From Paenibacillus sp. FSL M7-0420 (GTDB lineage: Bacteria; Bacillota; Bacilli; Paenibacillales; Paenibacillaceae): DNA of 64,000 nucleotides. The stretch covers positions 6,572,001 to 6,636,000 of the forward strand of contig NZ_JBBOCJ010000001.1 of NCBI RefSeq assembly GCF_038002345.1. Reading direction: 5' to 3'. Every line of letters begins with the position of its first letter. Within the stretch, counting starts at the first letter, position 1. The notes under the pieces were generated by a model, which was not told the DNA's origin, searched no databases, and worked only from the letters and a program-made list of their open reading frames with translations. Of the stretch, positions 19,233-45,811 are shown piece after piece. A program made the translations under genes and the position numbers.

Positions 19233-19530
19233 ACGCTGTCCCTTCGGGATACGCGCTAAGGGCTTAACTGCACGCTGTCCTTGCGGGATACGTGCTTAGG
19301 GCTTGAGTGCACGCTGTCCCTGCGGGATACGCGCTAAGAGCTTAACTGCGGGCTGTTCCTGCGGAATGCGCAAAGAGCTTCAACAGCACGCTGTCCCTCC
19401 GGGATACGCGCAAAGGGCTTGACTGCGGGCTGTTCCTGCGGAATGCGCAAAGAGCTTCAACAGCACGCTGTCCCTCCGGGATACGCGCTAAGTGCTCAAC
19501 TGCGGGCTGTCCCTCCGGGATATGCAAGGG
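19233..19530. repeat. Tandem repeat of 38-39 bp, seven units plus a partial
   Basis: Units begin at 19233, 19272, 19311, 19350, 19388, 19427 and 19465, with a partial unit from 19504. The common core is CTGTCCCTNCGGGATACGCG followed by an A/G-rich half and CTTAACTGC. Two sub-types alternate in the second half (ACGCTGTCC... and GGGCTGTTC...), showing that pairs of units were duplicated together. The array lies between uvrB and uvrA. A short frame through it merely repeats 13-residue words and has no ribosome site. Confidence 0.9.
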
Positions 19531-40725: not shown

Positions 40726-41283
40726 ATGGGGGAATGGGGGCGGGGGTGGAGGCGCCTGTGCTGCATACGGACAACTTGCGGTTCTCGGGGAGCTGCTCCC
40801 CCTCTGCCAGAAACAAGTGGAAAAACGCATCTTAAATTCACAGTTTCTGATGATTCCAGGAAATTAGTTGGAAAAACAGCATCTGCTGTCGCTGGTTGTG
40901 ATGCTGACGGACGATTCGGGAGTAATTAAGTGTCGTTTTTCCAACTGTTGTCCCCAAAGAGGGCATTTGCTAATCAGCAAGTGTTGTAAATCCAACTATT
41001 TTCCGTGTCGCAGTATTGGCAGACTGGTCAGTTCTCCAATTAGCCGTGTACCAGAGCATCGCCAAACTGATTAGCCATCTACCTATTCCCCCACGCCACA
41101 ATACCAGCAGACTGATCCGCTCTCCAACTGTAACGCATAGCGCAGATTCCCGTTATGCCGCATCACCCCAACTTTCCAATTAGTCTTATAAGAAATGGAG
41201 CTTACCTGAGAGTTCGCATACACTCATCAAGTTCGCCGGGGACGGGCAGCGGGAGAATATTCACAGATAAGAGGTGCTGATTC
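40726..41283. repeat. Intergenic region with inverted AGTTGGAAAAAC repeats
   Basis: AGTTGGAAAAAC at 40866-40877 and its exact complement GTTTTTCCAACT at 40935-40946 face each other; a degenerate copy (AAGTGGAAAAACGC) lies near 40815, and further ones (ATCCAACTATTTTCC, TCTCCAACTG, TTTCCAATTAG) are scattered to 41190. No reading frame is convincing. The region separates a kinase from its regulator, which are normally adjacent. Confidence 0.65.
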
Positions 41284-41946
41284 ATGATTAGCGTATTGAT
41301 TGTTGACGATGATTCTTTTATCCGCGAGAGCCTGAAGGTATTGATCGGGCTGGATGCCGGTATCGAAGTGGCCGGAACCGCAGGGGATGGCCGGGAGGCT
41401 CTCTCCTTGCTGGGGGATCTGCCCGGCGGAGCGGATGTTGTACTCATGGATATCCGGATGCCGGGATGTGACGGGGTGGAAGGCACACGGCTGATCAAAA
41501 AAGCCTATCCGGCCGTAGCCGTCCTGATGCTGACCACCTTCGATGATGACGAGTATATTATTGAGGCTCTGCGCGCCGGGGCGAGTGGATATCTGCTCAA
41601 GAACATCCCGCCGGACCGGATCATTCAAGGCATCAAAACCGTATATGAGGGCAATATGCTCATTCATCCCGAGATTGCCCGCAAGCTGACGGGCTTCCTC
41701 CAGCCATCCGCGCGTCAGGAAATTCCAGAGGCTCAGCCGCTTGCTTCCTATGGCCTGACCAAGTCCGAGCAGGCCGTCGTCACCTCCATTGCAGAGGGGC
41801 TCACCAACAAGGAAATCGCCGCCAAGCTGTTCCTGAGCGAAGGCACCATCAAAAACTATATCACCGACATCCTCAGCAAGCTCGGCGTACGTGACCGGAC
41901 GCAGATTGCGATTCTGTATCTGAAGAGCACGCAGGGGAACCCTTGA
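41284..41946 (+). CDS. NarL/LuxR-type response regulator (LnrK-like)
   Basis: The 220-residue protein has a receiver domain with acidic pocket DDD at 8-10, phosphoacceptor Asp56 in VVLMDIRMPG, Thr and Lys of the switch (LMLTTFDDDEY, GYLLKNIPPD), and a C-terminal LuxR helix-turn-helix (GLTKSEQAVVTSIAEGLTNK, EGTIKNYITDILSKLGV). AGAGGTG precedes the ATG by about 6 bases. With the upstream kinase it probably controls the divergent ABC exporter. Confidence 0.92.
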   Translation: MISVLIVDDDSFIRESLKVLIGLDAGIEVAGTAGDGREALSLLGDLPGGADVVLMDIRMPGCDGVEGTRLIKKAYPAVAVLMLTTFDDDEYIIEALRAGASGYLLKNIPPDRIIQGIKTVYEGNMLIHPEIARKLTGFLQPSARQEIPEAQPLASYGLTKSEQAVVTSIAEGLTNKEIAAKLFLSEGTIKNYITDILSKLGVRDRTQIAILYLKSTQGNP

Positions 41947-42029
41947 GCCATGTACTGGCAATATCTAAGGTGAACAATTATCGCTGTCTGGTGACATACA
42001 TCCAGCCCATATACCTTTTTGGTCACACC

Positions 42030-42313
42030 TTGTAGCCGGTTTTCGCATACGTTCTGAAGTGCCTCTTCCTTTCATGGTGGCGCTCCGCCTGTCTGTCGCC
42101 AATTCTGAGCGTTTCCTCTCAAGGGCCGCTTGTCTGGAGCCGCATTGTTGCACATTTTGCAGGATTCTTCTAAAAATGTTACGGGCTACGGGTACATTGT
42201 TGCATCATTTGCAGGAATTCTGGTGCTTAGTGCGATCCACTCCGTCCGAATGTGGTCGGTTTTTCGATTACATTTGGTCCACGCACCCAATCAGCGACGA
42301 ATGTGGTCGGTTT
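42030..42313. repeat. Left part of the interrupted hairpin-repeat region
   Basis: A complete 51-bp unit (42248-42298) starts GAATGTGGTCGGTTTTTCGA, and a second unit begins at 42299 but is cut after GAATGTGGTCGGTTT by the IS element. Upstream, two copies of CATTGTTGCA..ATTTTGCAGG-type sequence start at 42143 and 42195, 52 bp apart, and a degenerate GGTTTTCGCATACGTTC lies near 42037. The 41947-42030 stretch shows nothing recognisable. Confidence 0.85.
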
Positions 42314-42382
42314 AATACGAAAATAAAAGTACCGGACAATGCACCGCAGACTGGATTTTGACAAAAAAAGACCCACCGCCCT

Positions 42383-42404
42383 AAAAAAACGTTTCGTTTT
42401 TTTT
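42383..42404. terminator. Perfect A/T palindrome downstream of the transposase gene
   Basis: AAAAAAACG and CGTTTTTTT pair around TTT just after the transposase stop. It can act as a terminator on either strand inside the IS right end. Confidence 0.6.
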
Positions 42405-42417
42405 GAAAAAGGGGAGA

Positions 42418-43650
42418 CTATGGGGTAGGATTTAGTTGCACGCTATATCCTAACTGCTGGATATATTGCACGTACCGATCCAACCGGTTTTTCTTGGACG
42501 TCTCATCGCCTAGTGAGACGTCTATTTCTTGGTAGGACCTCTTCTCCCGCATCAGGGCATGGAGGATTCGAATCAGCAAATGCGCGGTGGCGACGTTTGC
42601 TTTTTTATCGCCTCGTCTCTTACGTATTCGTCGAAAGAATTGGCCGATCCGGTTCGAGGACCGAGAGTTCGCCCAAGCCGCCTGACACAAGGCCCCTTTC
42701 AGATGCTTGTTCCCTTGCATCGTTTTTGACTTTCTTCGCTTTCCCGCGCTTTCGTTGTTCCCTGGACACACCCCCGCCCATGAAGCAAACTGCGCATCAC
42801 TCGGGAACATTTCCGCGACATGCGGCCCCACTTCGGCAAAGATGGTCACGGCAGACGTCCGCTCAATTCCTGGAATGGAGTCAATTTGTTCAATCACCTC
42901 CAGGTACGGTTCTGCCTTCGCCTCGATTCGCGCTTCCAGCTCCGTGATCCTTTTCTCCAAATAGACCAAGTGGTCCCAATGGTCTCGAATCATCTCCCGA
43001 TGATGACGGCGCAACTTGCCATTGAGCGCGTCTAGCAACTGCGGAACTTTCTTTTTTAAACGGGTTTTGACCAGGCTTTTAACGGCCATTTCGTCTACGA
43101 CCTCGCCGTCCATGATCTTCTGGAGCAGGCCCCGGCCCGAAACCCCATATAGATCGGACATAAAGGTGGTCAGCTTGATGTTAGCATCCTGCAGGATTTT
43201 GTGAATACGGTTTTTCTCCGCCGTCACCGCCTGCACCATCTTACTCCGGTAACGGGTCAAGTCTCGCAAATCCCGGATGTCCTGTTCTGGCACCATACTG
43301 CCTTCAATGAGCCCGCAACGGTGCAATTGCGCTAACCAGCGCGCATCTTGCATGTCACTTTTTCGACCCGGCATATTCTTTACCCGCTGGGCGTTGGCCA
43401 AGACCAGATCACAACTGCCCTCTAAGATATTCCATACCGGTTTCCAAAACACGCCGGTACTCTCCATCACCACTTCCCGACAGCCGTGTTCATTCAGCCA
43501 ATCTTGCAGGCCTAGCAATTCTCGGGTTGTCGTCCCAAAGGTTTTCAGGTGACATTGTGGTTTCTGTTCGATCGGTCCTTTCAACACGCAGGCCACAACG
43601 GTTTCCTGGTGCACGTCTAGACCGGCGCAACACATACGTACAGCATCCAT
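42418..43650 (-). CDS. IS110-family transposase (RNA-guided recombinase)
   Basis: I start at ATG 43650, nine bases after GGAGG (the ATG at 43659 abuts the site), giving 410 residues. The N-terminal RuvC-like domain carries the DEDD residues Asp12 (AGLDVHQE), Glu63 (VVMESTGVFW), Asp99 and Asp102 (RKSDMQDARW). A coiled coil follows (~residues 225-260), then the IS116/IS110/IS902 domain with the catalytic serine Ser301 in CPGNNESAGKRRKSK. Proteins of this family join with a bridge RNA encoded in the element to recombine target and donor. The gene is intact, with no frameshift. Confidence 0.95.
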   Translation of the reverse strand: MDAVRMCCAGLDVHQETVVACVLKGPIEQKPQCHLKTFGTTTRELLGLQDWLNEHGCREVVMESTGVFWKPVWNILEGSCDLVLANAQRVKNMPGRKSDMQDARWLAQLHRCGLIEGSMVPEQDIRDLRDLTRYRSKMVQAVTAEKNRIHKILQDANIKLTTFMSDLYGVSGRGLLQKIMDGEVVDEMAVKSLVKTRLKKKVPQLLDALNGKLRRHHREMIRDHWDHLVYLEKRITELEARIEAKAEPYLEVIEQIDSIPGIERTSAVTIFAEVGPHVAEMFPSDAQFASWAGVCPGNNESAGKRRKSKTMQGNKHLKGALCQAAWANSRSSNRIGQFFRRIRKRRGDKKANVATAHLLIRILHALMREKRSYQEIDVSLGDETSKKNRLDRYVQYIQQLGYSVQLNPTP

Positions 43651-43682
43651 TCCAATCATCCTCCATCGTCAGCTTACAAATC

Positions 43683-43850
43683 ATGCGCTCGAGTGAGTGT
43701 AATTTAATACACGTACTTTTGGGGGCTACAATAGGCGATGCTCGAAAAGCGCAATAGAACAGTTTTTCGCACGGGGTGTATCCCAGTAACCGTTTCCGCC
43801 CTTTGATTTGTATATGTAGTGTTGACGACTACAGCCTCATTTAGAATGGT
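43683..43850 (-). ncRNA. Candidate bridge RNA of the IS110 element
   Basis: Read 5' to 3' on the minus strand: a hairpin TGTAGT-CGTCAAC-ACTACA (43833-43815), then a first internal loop whose sides hold CGGTT (43792-43788) and CGAAAAAC (43769-43762) around an AC-GGG/CCC-GT stem, then a second loop closed by GCGC..TCGAG (43752-43741) with CTCGAGCGC (43693-43685), whose sides hold GCCTATT (43736-43730) and GTATTAAA (43710-43703). The first pair matches the target halves flanking the insertion (CGGTT; complement of GTTTTTCG), the second the element ends (GCCTGTT; complement of TTTAATAC). This is the target-loop then donor-loop order known from IS621. Strand naming and exact ends are inferred. Confidence 0.7.
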
Positions 43851-43889
43851 TGCGACGGATGCCACCCACTTATTTTCATTCCTGGGGGT

Positions 43890-43909
43890 GACAAGGCCTC
43901 TGTCTTGTC
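43890..43909. repeat. Hairpin at the IS110 end next to the bridge RNA
   Basis: GACAAG (43890-43895) pairs with CTTGTC (43904-43909) six bases inside the element boundary. Its role is unknown; it may be the start of the non-coding RNA or a structural end motif. Confidence 0.5.
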
Positions 43910-43915
43910 ATGCCT

Positions 43916-44145
43916 GTTTTTCGATTACATTTGGTCCACATGCCCACGCAGCGCTGAATGTGGTCGGTTTTTCGATTACATTTGGTCCACGCACCCAATC
44001 AGCGACGAATGTGGTCGGTTTTTCGATTACATTTGGCCCATGTGCCCACGCAGCGCTGAATGTGGTCGGTTTTTCGATTACATTTGGTCCATGTGCCCAT
44101 GCACCTGGAATGTGATCGGTTTTTCGATTACATTCCAGGTGCCTC
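43916..44145. repeat. 51-bp tandem hairpin repeats, right part of the interrupted array
   Basis: Units begin at 43956, 44007, 44058 and 44108, preceded by the right 40 bp of the unit split by the IS. Each starts GAATGTGGTCGGTTTTTCGA and continues TTACATTTGGTCCACGC. AATGT..TCG and CGA..ACATT face each other around a T-rich loop, so each unit can form a small stem-loop. The last unit ends in an inverted CACCTGGAATGT/ACATTCCAGGTG pair. A frame through it only repeats 17-residue words and is not a gene. Confidence 0.92.
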
Positions 44146-44170
44146 ACATCACTTCCTTAACAAATATACA

Positions 44171-44211
44171 AGGCCCGTTCCCCCTGAACATAGTTCAGAA
44201 AGAACGGGCCT
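44171..44211 (-). terminator. Intrinsic terminator of the minJ-like gene
   Basis: AGGCCCGTTC (44171-44180) pairs perfectly with GAACGGGCCT (44202-44211), enclosing CTGAAC/GTTCAG. T-rich sequence follows on both strands (TTGTATATTTG on the minus strand). Confidence 0.88.
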
Positions 44212-44268
44212 CTTTAACCTCCCGCGCCAGCAGCCGCCGGGGGAATCAATTACGTTGATAATCTTCCG

Positions 44269-45615
44269 TCAGACACCGGCAGATTCCTGCTTAGCCTCTG
44301 CTGGCGAGGTCTGCTTGGCCTCTGCCGGCGGCGTCTTCTTCGCCCGGCCCAGCCGGTCACCCTGCACTCCCCGCTGCCGGATGCCTGTCCGCATCCCGAT
44401 GATGCTGAAGATGCTGGACGGCTTGGTCTCTGCGGTGATGCCCCCGTCCGGGTCCGGCACCAGAATGATGCCGAGCTGATGATGGTCCCCGGCATAGATC
44501 GCGCGCTGCAGATACTTGCTCTCGCCTTCGCGGTTCTGCACCTCCAGCTTGCAGAACGCGGGGTTCATGCGCAGCGCCTCATGCAGCTGCGCCGCGCTGG
44601 TCAACAGGACCCCGTTGACCTTCAGCAAGATCTCGCCGGGCAGGATGCCCAGCTCCTGCGCGGGGCTGCCCTGCAGCACGGCCAGCACCTTGCGGCCGGC
44701 CGGGGGATGCACGAAGACGGGGCTAAGGCTGCGCTCCTCCAGAGCGCTGTACCAGCTTAACCCTTCGTGCAGCAGAATAGCCGCGAGCGCCGCGACAACC
44801 GTCAGCGGGCTCCATAGGTCCGCAAGCAGGCTGAGGCCGAGCAGGACGGCGCTGTAGACCAGCAGCCGTCCGAACGTCCGGGCCGCCTTGCGTCCGGGCA
44901 GCATGCCCTGGGTCATCTCGCTGAAGCCGATGATGACCGGCAGCGAGACCAGGCCGAGGCCCCCGCCCAGCAGCGGATGCCACGGCAGTTCACCGATTCC
45001 CGTGCCTGCGGGAATCAGCACGAACAGCGGCAGCGGCCAGAAGGCCTGCAGCTGGTAGCCGCCCACCACCTTGCCGCGCTTGCCGGCAAGGAACAGCGGC
45101 GTCGCCAGCCGGGGCCCCTGCCAGCGCGCCAGCAGCGCCTCGGCCACGTGGAGCAGCGCGGCCAGCGCCAGCAGCGCCGGGATGTCCATCTCCCGCACGG
45201 CGCCGGCAACCGTTCCGGCGGCTCCGTTCTGCAGCGTCCCCGGGAAGAACGACAGTACAAACTGCACGATCCCCAGCGCGCCTATGGCATACGCAAAGCA
45301 TAAATAACGCACCCGAAACAGCATTAAGACAAGGCTGACCACCCAGATACAGGCAACAGCCGTATAGGTCACTGAGACTCCAAGTGCAACCGCGGCAAGG
45401 GAGACAAACAGCCCCATAAGTCCGCCGGTCCACACGGTCCGCCAGGTTTCCGGTCCCCAGCTATGCAGCTTCACATGAATAAGCTTCCGCTCCAGGGCTA
45501 CCTGTCTGCGGTAATATAGGGCAATAAATAGAATAGCGATATAGTAATAGGGCTGAATCAGCAGATGAAGCACTGCCGTGCCCCAGCTGGTCAGCAGCTC
45601 CGGGAGTACATTCAA
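44269..45615 (-). CDS. minJ: MinJ-like polytopic membrane protein with PDZ domain
   Basis: About eight to ten hydrophobic segments cover residues 10-290, then a PDZ domain (~310-400: LAVLQGSPAQELGILPGEIL, LKVNGVLLTSAAQLHEAL) and a low-complexity tail with AEAKQTSPAEAKQ repeats. Topology and location beside ctpB, ftsEX and near uvrBA match MinJ of B. subtilis, which bridges DivIVA and MinD to place the division septum. Identity rests on layout and context more than on sequence. AAAGGAG lies one base before a GTG at 45627 and 11 before the TTG at 45615; I favour the TTG. A 52-bp repeat array separates it from ctpB. Confidence 0.72.
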   Translation of the reverse strand: MNVLPELLTSWGTAVLHLLIQPYYYIAILFIALYYRRQVALERKLIHVKLHSWGPETWRTVWTGGLMGLFVSLAAVALGVSVTYTAVACIWVVSLVLMLFRVRYLCFAYAIGALGIVQFVLSFFPGTLQNGAAGTVAGAVREMDIPALLALAALLHVAEALLARWQGPRLATPLFLAGKRGKVVGGYQLQAFWPLPLFVLIPAGTGIGELPWHPLLGGGLGLVSLPVIIGFSEMTQGMLPGRKAARTFGRLLVYSAVLLGLSLLADLWSPLTVVAALAAILLHEGLSWYSALEERSLSPVFVHPPAGRKVLAVLQGSPAQELGILPGEILLKVNGVLLTSAAQLHEALRMNPAFCKLEVQNREGESKYLQRAIYAGDHHQLGIILVPDPDGGITAETKPSSIFSIIGMRTGIRQRGVQGDRLGRAKKTPPAEAKQTSPAEAKQESAGV

Positions 45616-45671
45616 CGGTTCGCACACTCCTTTTCATAGCCTAGAACAAATAGGGATTATCTGCACGCCGG

Positions 45672-45811
45672 CACAATGTATGCTGTTTTTCGCATACATT
45701 CGGGCCATGCGCCTGCACGTCAGCACAATGTATGCTGTTTTTCACATACATTTGGCCCATACGCCTGCACGCCGGCACAATGTATGCTGTTTTTCACATA
45801 CATTCGGGCCA
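45672..45811. repeat. 52-bp tandem hairpin repeats between ctpB and minJ-like gene
   Basis: Three units begin at 45672, 45724 and 45776. Each starts CACAATGTATGCTGTTTTTC and contains AATGTATGC and GCATACATT (units 2 and 3: one base changed), a 9-bp hairpin with a T5 loop. The framework AATGT...GTTTTTC...ACATT.GG.CCA is shared with the 51-bp array at 42.2-44.1 kb, so both are branches of one repeat family. Confidence 0.9.

Follow-up and report, generated by a model that had tools for sequence, protein, structure and literature searches.

In the published text on IS621 (PMC11208160, PMC11208158) a non-coding RNA (ncRNA) lies upstream of the transposase and presents a target loop and then a donor loop, and two bases past the core on the 3' strand of the target loop, the handshake guide, are described as pairing with the donor after strand exchange (Hiraizumi 2024, PMC11208158). 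The text of Siddiquee 2024 (PMC11187229) states that the seekRNAs of IS1111-type elements carry the top-strand complement first, whereas ISEc21, the sole IS110-type element studied there, has the opposite order; as for the position of the ncRNA, IS1111 types are said to have it mostly downstream and IS110 types mostly upstream, exceptions being noted, and guide order is tied to the IS110/IS1111 split and hence to ncRNA position. For IS1111 elements, a subterminal inverted repeat of 7-17 bp is given in the text of PMC11208160.

We analysed an IS110-family element in a 64,000-nucleotide stretch of DNA from Paenibacillus sp. FSL M7-0420 (the window). Judging from sequence comparison, it is very probable that the segment upstream of its transposase encodes a bridge (seek) RNA that would guide the recombinase, with predicted target guides that are reversed relative to the transposase in comparison with IS621. 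The new point is that ncRNA position and guide order, which can be read separately, disagree across a large clade, and this mismatch is relevant to the evolutionary route by which the bridge RNA changed ends, as well as to whether a donor end needs an RNA guide of its own.

The element, its transposase and its target

The transposase belongs to the IS110 family, carrying both PF01548 and PF02371 (Table 1), and it scores above the cut-off of NCBIfam NF033542 (4.4e-79). In a comparison with solved structures (PDB) IS621 was found at 5.8e-9, and MESTG (by its E), KSDMQDAR (by both its D) and NNESAG (by its S) align with IS621, the N-terminal stretch of this alignment being weak by itself (9.1 bits). 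The DEDD residues and the C-terminal serine of the family are present, the first D being presumably that of LDVH, which lies outside the IS621 alignment. Relatives of the protein at 96-98% identity are found in Paenibacillus silagei, P. tritici and P. piscarius, and the host genome has four copies of the element with 100% identical transposases. Of the 18 relatives listed with a shorter transposase frame, ten (L036, L088, L038, L039, L044, L045, L047, L097, L112 and L113; not the window's own copy) share one break point: the Ser-Ala-Gly codons, presumed catalytic, are followed at once by 8-9 consecutive A, where the frame is interrupted and the C-terminal part goes on in the -1 frame; the remaining eight break elsewhere or otherwise. 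This A-run break, shared by several lineages, looks like programmed frameshifting or transcriptional slippage.

The element ends were placed by comparison of the flanks with the uninterrupted target repeat and by copies at other sites. A first-pass annotation of this DNA had proposed the insertion site, and the site is real: the uninterrupted pattern TCGAAAAACCGANNACA occurs five times in the window, always exactly, where 0.11 occurrences are expected (up to two mismatches), and the host genome offers 313 exact copies of it (201 forward, 112 reverse; 0 for the reversed-letter control). The DNA words quoted in that annotation were likewise found in place (CGGTT at 42308-42312, GTTTTTCG at 43916-43923, GCCTGTT at 43912-43918 and TTTAATAC at 42311-42318). 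All 23 members of the window's ncRNA cluster are inserted in this palindromic repeat (read in transposase sense), with small variations. When the flanks are laid on the uninterrupted repeat, the left and right matches overlap over four bases, AAAC, and in a relative whose own uninterrupted repeat is adjacent (L073) the overlap is narrowed to AA; we place the core at AA within AAAC because only AA is shared in L073. In the group of relatives at about 40% identity the core would be AG.

The palindromic repeat is also found at 42251-42267, the 51-bp spacing of the array at the left end (Table 1) recurs among the target sites listed across the host genome, and the strand counts of these sites are uneven (201 vs 112). 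A second tandem array at 45661-45811 (52-bp period, 2.9 copies) has a similar palindrome, ATGTATG...CATACAT, and a 39/77-bp tandem array at 19233-19522 is built of CGCTGTCCCT.CGGGATACGCG-like units.

Table 1. Features of the element and its predicted guide RNA, in window coordinates; LE and RE, left and right end of the element; counts are out of 5000 permutations.
Feature	Position	Strand	Basis or remark
IS110-family element body	42314..43917	-	Between both core copies; RE at 42314, LE at 43917
DEDD transposase/recombinase, 413 aa	42418..43659	-	Pfam PF01548 8.3e-25, PF02371 7.4e-20
Bridge-RNA core (target loop, then donor loop)	43674..43823	-	Covariance model R1, 111.6 bits, E 3.3e-22; score not independent, as an identical sequence (L004) is among the 15 used to build R1
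Target-binding stem-loop (loop 1)	43754..43804	-	Consensus structure
Predicted 5' target guide ACGGTTA	43787..43793	-	Covariation 0.638 vs 0.338, 0/5000
Predicted 3' target guide TGCGAAAA	43764..43771	-	Covariation 0.763 vs 0.351, 0/5000; out-of-sample 0/5000
Probable handshake guide AC	43762..43763	-	Equals first two LE bases past the core, 43916-43917
Donor-binding stem-loop (loop 2) with closing basal stem strand	43675..43753	-	Consensus structure
5' strand of donor loop (CGCCTATTGTA)	43727..43737	-	No supported pairing with LE
Predicted donor guide GTATTAA	43704..43710	-	Covariation 0.992 vs 0.852, 0/5000
Predicted core dinucleotide, RE side	42312..42313	.	TT on +, AA on transposase strand
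Predicted core dinucleotide, LE side	43918..43919	.	TT on +, AA on transposase strand
Subterminal inverted repeat, LE copy (GAAAATAA)	43870..43877	-	Inverted-repeat comparison
Subterminal inverted repeat, RE copy (GAAAATAA)	42319..42326	+	Inverted-repeat comparison
Tandem array of palindromic target repeat, 51-bp period	43916..44134	.	Repeat analysis

A predicted upstream RNA and its covariation with the landing site

Elements were gathered from a genome collection and from a survey of 394 genomes of the family, of which 63 had matches at E 1e-80 or better, the copies per genome in the family survey being a lower bound, as at most four candidates were scored in each. Duplicates and fragments (L005-L010, L013, L017 and L018, the last two never oriented) and loci with no anchor motif (L085, L015, L044, L045) were dropped, and L001-L003 and L019-L035 went uncounted, their places being covered again by other loci. 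The 94 elements kept, 3 of them without a usable left end and 12 without a usable right end, fell into 31 ncRNA clusters, the window's included, and each cluster entered the tests through a single representative, 29 clusters for the left flank and 26 for the right side.

A consensus of 15 RNAs of the window group gave 23 pairs, which form a basal stem, a donor stem and a target stem-loop that contains a further hairpin; three pairs of the donor hairpin were added by hand. Across the 15 RNAs these 26 pairs were paired in 95.9% of cells vs 83.6% in shuffled alignments (0 of 500) and 16 of them showed changes on both sides (0 of 500 shuffles); further pair types were no better than shuffles (68 of 500), and structure prediction on all 31 clusters returned 14 pairs only. 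The RNA of the window folded alone (43660-43920) was no better than shuffles (z -0.18), and an Rfam search of 41000-45500 gave no match. In a sample of 398 genomes drawn from the whole phylum, a covariance model built from the 15 RNAs, R1, detected the RNA in 16, that of the host among them, and it also matches a Citrobacter relative (E 2.3e-4). It did not match the IS621 loci L128 and L129, a silence that says little on homology because, of the 21 clade loci tried besides the window, 8 (L100, L103, L104, L112, L123, L124, L014, L016) likewise escape R1, as does the Streptomyces relative L160. The annotated span, 43683-43850, is close to the modelled core, and the guide words that had been read from it are present on the minus strand (CGGTT at 43788-43792, CGAAAAAC at 43762-43769, GCCTATT within 43727-43737 and GTATTAA(A), its GTATTAA at 43704-43710). 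In the model, the three supported guides fall in loops of a well-supported consensus structure and not in stable stems, as the annotation had predicted.

The left flank of each element was compared with its own RNA; the permutation counts overstate independence because the elements are related, but the longest word shared in sense was 8.83 vs 5.63 permuted (n=29, 0 of 5000) and the antisense comparison gave 1789 of 5000. On the right flank (n=26) it was the antisense that stood out, 6.50 vs 5.72 (0 of 5000), with 6.00 vs 5.79 in sense (643 of 5000). Column by column, three diagonals were prominent, corresponding to the guides of Table 1, and many single-column signals were subgroup effects; the left-flank signal was confined to one strand and one register. 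Thus, to the left and to the right of a two-base core, the landing site is matched by the predicted loop 1 and covaries with it, while the right end covaries with the 3' strand of loop 2; these are the positions that the first-pass annotation had given to both target guides and to the donor guide for the end at 42314. Counted over single elements, a match of at least 5 nt ending at the core is seen in 89 of the 91 with a usable left flank and is missing in 2, a raw count without a chance rate; the match of the window's own 5' target guide spans 5 nt only.

A common descent of flank and ncRNA, or hitchhiking of the target site, with the protein alone picking the target, is a highly improbable explanation of the covariation. 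Close relatives do have target and guide in common, as all 23 copies of the window's cluster do, but the signals persist when permutation is restricted to within subgroups (loop-1 3' strand with left flank, n=29; loop-1 5' strand with right flank, n=26; loop-2 3' strand with right end, n=26; each 0 of 5000), the left-flank signal keeps to its single strand and register, and RNAs that are otherwise almost the same have different guides and different flanks. For the loop-1 3', loop-1 5' and loop-2 3' guides in that order, the window subgroup alone gave 0, 0 and 3 of 5000 and the 40% group alone 0, 3 and 3 of 5000.

The R1 search supplied 26 new loci, 24 of which adjoin a relative of the transposase. 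They yielded 21 left flanks, 19 of them distinct (none from L131, L140, L142, L144 and L145), and with seemingly mis-anchored loci such as L133, L137 and L141 kept in, the 19 flanks matched their own RNAs at 8.26 vs 6.28 (0 of 5000; antisense 640 of 5000), a count that again overstates independence because many of these loci are near-copies. In a comparison of near-identical RNAs, 18 of 19 loci were read (L139 was left out). RNAs identical to that of L134 at 151/156, 152/156 and 153/157 positions carry different guides (AGTACTAAC, AGTGCTAAC, GGAACTAAC, GACTCTAAC), and most flanks track the guides (L134 GTACTAACC, L155 TGCTAACC, L138 GAACTAACC, L151 CTCTAACC); the flank of L137 has a mismatch to its guide and those of L149, L156 and L157 track theirs over 7-8 bases. 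Further away, the left flank (TTGAGTA) and the right end (GAATCAGATTC) of a Streptomyces relative (38% identical) agree by eye with its RNA, and a Nannocystis relative, L014 (40%), has the left flank GAGTGAGTC. Loop 1 is altered along with the landing site in homologues at other targets, and guide reprogramming seems to have been carried out already by nature. The clade would provide many naturally retargeted pairs of guide and site, together with a compact recombinase with a target code that is legible in the sequence.

Guide order in relation to IS621, ISEc21 and IS1111 types

On the transposase strand, the guides predicted for the window clade read as follows: the 5' guide is antisense to the right flank, and the 3' guide has the sense of the left flank. 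In the window itself, CGGTT of the 5' guide is antisense to the flank adjoining RE (42308-42312), CGAAAA of the 3' guide is the sense of the flank and core adjoining LE (43918-43923), and the donor guide GTATTAA is the sense of RE with the core (42312-42318). We read IS621 in the same way at two E. coli loci. There, again on the transposase strand, it is the 5' strand of loop 1 that has the sense of the left flank (one mismatch), and the right flank is matched in antisense by the 3' strand. As read from these sequences, the predicted guide order of the clade relative to the transposase is the reverse of that of IS621. The first-pass annotation had stated a rule of sense on the 5' side and antisense on the 3' side, framed on the plus strand, which is the strand opposite the transposase; the order is reversed because only on that strand does the rule read as in IS621.

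It is scarcely credible that the order is truly IS621-like and appears reversed through the imperfectly palindromic target in the window. The target, AATGTNNTCG-AAAAAC-CGANNACATT, is a near-palindrome, but the same order is seen at targets lacking this palindrome (for example TGCACAAAC in L079, GTCTCAAAC in L084 and GTCCCAAAC in L087), the IS621-like order gave no covariation signal in the window clade (best offsets 1668 and 5000 of 5000) and the left flank is matched in sense only.

With IS621, as the text of PMC11208160 and PMC11208158 describes it, the clade shares the upstream ncRNA and the order of the loops, the sense 5' guide and antisense 3' guide in the RNA's own frame, a two-base core inside the guides, and, on the 3' strand of loop 1, probable handshake bases that follow the core. 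It differs in an RNA frame that is antiparallel to the transposase, where that of IS621 is parallel, in the predicted core (AA or AG vs CT), in one donor end without a detectable guide, in the length of the transposase (413 vs 326 aa) and in the subterminal repeat (6-9 vs 2-3 bp). ISEc21, by the text of PMC11187229, has the ncRNA upstream as here and the opposite guide order. Of the features of the IS110 group, the clade has the placement of the bridge RNA, which is in the left end and precedes the transposase, whereas its bottom-strand match does not precede the top-strand match, as it does in ISEc21 (published) and IS621 (checked here), and its subterminal repeat is neither absent nor short.

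The order with the top-strand complement before the bottom-strand complement is that given for the IS1111-type seekRNAs of ISEc11, ISPa11, ISKpn4 and ISPst6 in the text of PMC11187229, and the subterminal inverted repeat falls mostly within the IS1111 range (text of PMC11208160): it measures 6-9 bp in 26 of 26 clusters, at least 7 in 25 and 6 in one (shuffled mean 4.2), counts that hold partly by construction because the motif served as anchor. The ncRNA, usually downstream in IS1111 types, is upstream here. The two likenesses could suggest an IS1111-group element whose ncRNA was relocated to the left end, which we consider unlikely. The LE copy of the repeat lies about 40 nt inside the element, behind a hairpin, and the transposase, at 413 vs about 340 aa, falls outside the group of IS4321, ISPsy16 and IS884 (support 100/100), the latter two being assigned to IS1111 through their relatedness to IS4321. 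The same tree joins the window clade as a single group at a support of only 63/94, does not fix the deep order, and has four rows of no group that may fall inside the clade; with ISEc21 added, on a branch of about 7, the deep order is equally left unfixed. The tree and the comparison of transposase lengths left out L083, L037, L041 (internal stop), L134 and L136.

We favour an upstream-ncRNA, long-transposase clade of IS110 elements with a predicted IS1111-like guide order. In the running text of the literature searched, we found no published statement of an upstream ncRNA combined with reversed guide order.

The left end, a probable handshake and the proposed mechanism

Guides for both sides of target and donor would make four, and three are supported. 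The first-pass annotation had four matches obeying one rule, of which three exceed chance by covariation in relatives; the fourth, GCCTATT in loop 2 as donor guide for the end at 43917, finds no support. Across 29 clusters no covariation with LE was seen for the 5' strand of loop 2 (at word lengths of 4, 5 and 6 nt the best offsets gave 350, 807 and 2209 of 5000), and longest-shared-word tests with the antisense of three LE stretches gave 547, 3579 and 4958 of 5000, such that neither test found a donor guide for the left end, be it in loop 2 or in the rest of the RNA. The comparison of loop 2 with the element ends in homologues is thus borne out for the 3' strand and the right end and not for the 5' strand and LE. 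A standard four-guide bridge RNA, with GCCTATT pairing with LE, is accordingly a rather improbable reading: GCCTATT matches GCCTGTT at six of seven positions in the window, and the RNA word is present in 23 of 23 members of the window's cluster with an LE word unchanged in 20 of 23 (one-base exceptions in L056, L068 and L069), but besides these negative tests, a sister cluster (L070) has an altered LE and an unaltered RNA word.

The left end may leave a trace in loop 1. The bases AC at 43762-43763 are probably the handshake guide, at the published position of IS621, where they are expected if the RNA follows IS621 logic in its own frame. The first base covaries with the left end (0.828 vs 0.542, 1 of 5000), the second, almost always C, hardly varies on either side and is hence uninformative, and both jointly gave 0.897 vs 0.754 (0 of 5000). 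As a control on this reading, the same two loop-1 bases were compared with the two bases that open the right flank, and they covary there too, less strongly (0.538 vs 0.384, 1 of 5000). The match extends across both bases in 72 of 91 elements, and in L073 the position is T in element and guide and A in the target, tracking the element and not the target. We grade the handshake as probable because one base is informative and because of the weaker right-flank signal; a donor-loop handshake signal was weak (396 and 286 of 5000).

Taken together these data show that the observation of a bridge-RNA-like ncRNA upstream of the IS110 transposase, with a target loop and then a donor loop, is real and well above chance, being backed by covariation and by the consensus structure, and that its first interpretation is right in the main and partly supported. 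We propose that the RNA would be transcribed upstream of and together with the transposase, bind it, and pair with the target and the circularised donor such that both are aligned on the AA core, where the recombinase would exchange strands (TT on the other strand), the extra bases past the core acting as a handshake guide by analogy with IS621. The logic of IS621 appears to be kept in the RNA's own frame, with that frame antiparallel to the transposase gene. Whether this amounts to a third bridge-RNA architecture, with an upstream RNA, a frame antiparallel to a long DEDD recombinase, one full donor guide and a short handshake, we put forward tentatively, as a possibility that falls somewhat short of an even chance; if true, guide order would be uncoupled from ncRNA position, and the clade could be an intermediate between IS110- and IS1111-type elements.

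The left end may be recognised via the handshake bases, the protein or the subterminal repeat. Between the left end and the subterminal repeat, LE contains a hairpin at 43880-43917 (ATGAC...GTCAC), which may take part in end recognition, and inverted repeats like it are seen by eye at the same place in many relatives.
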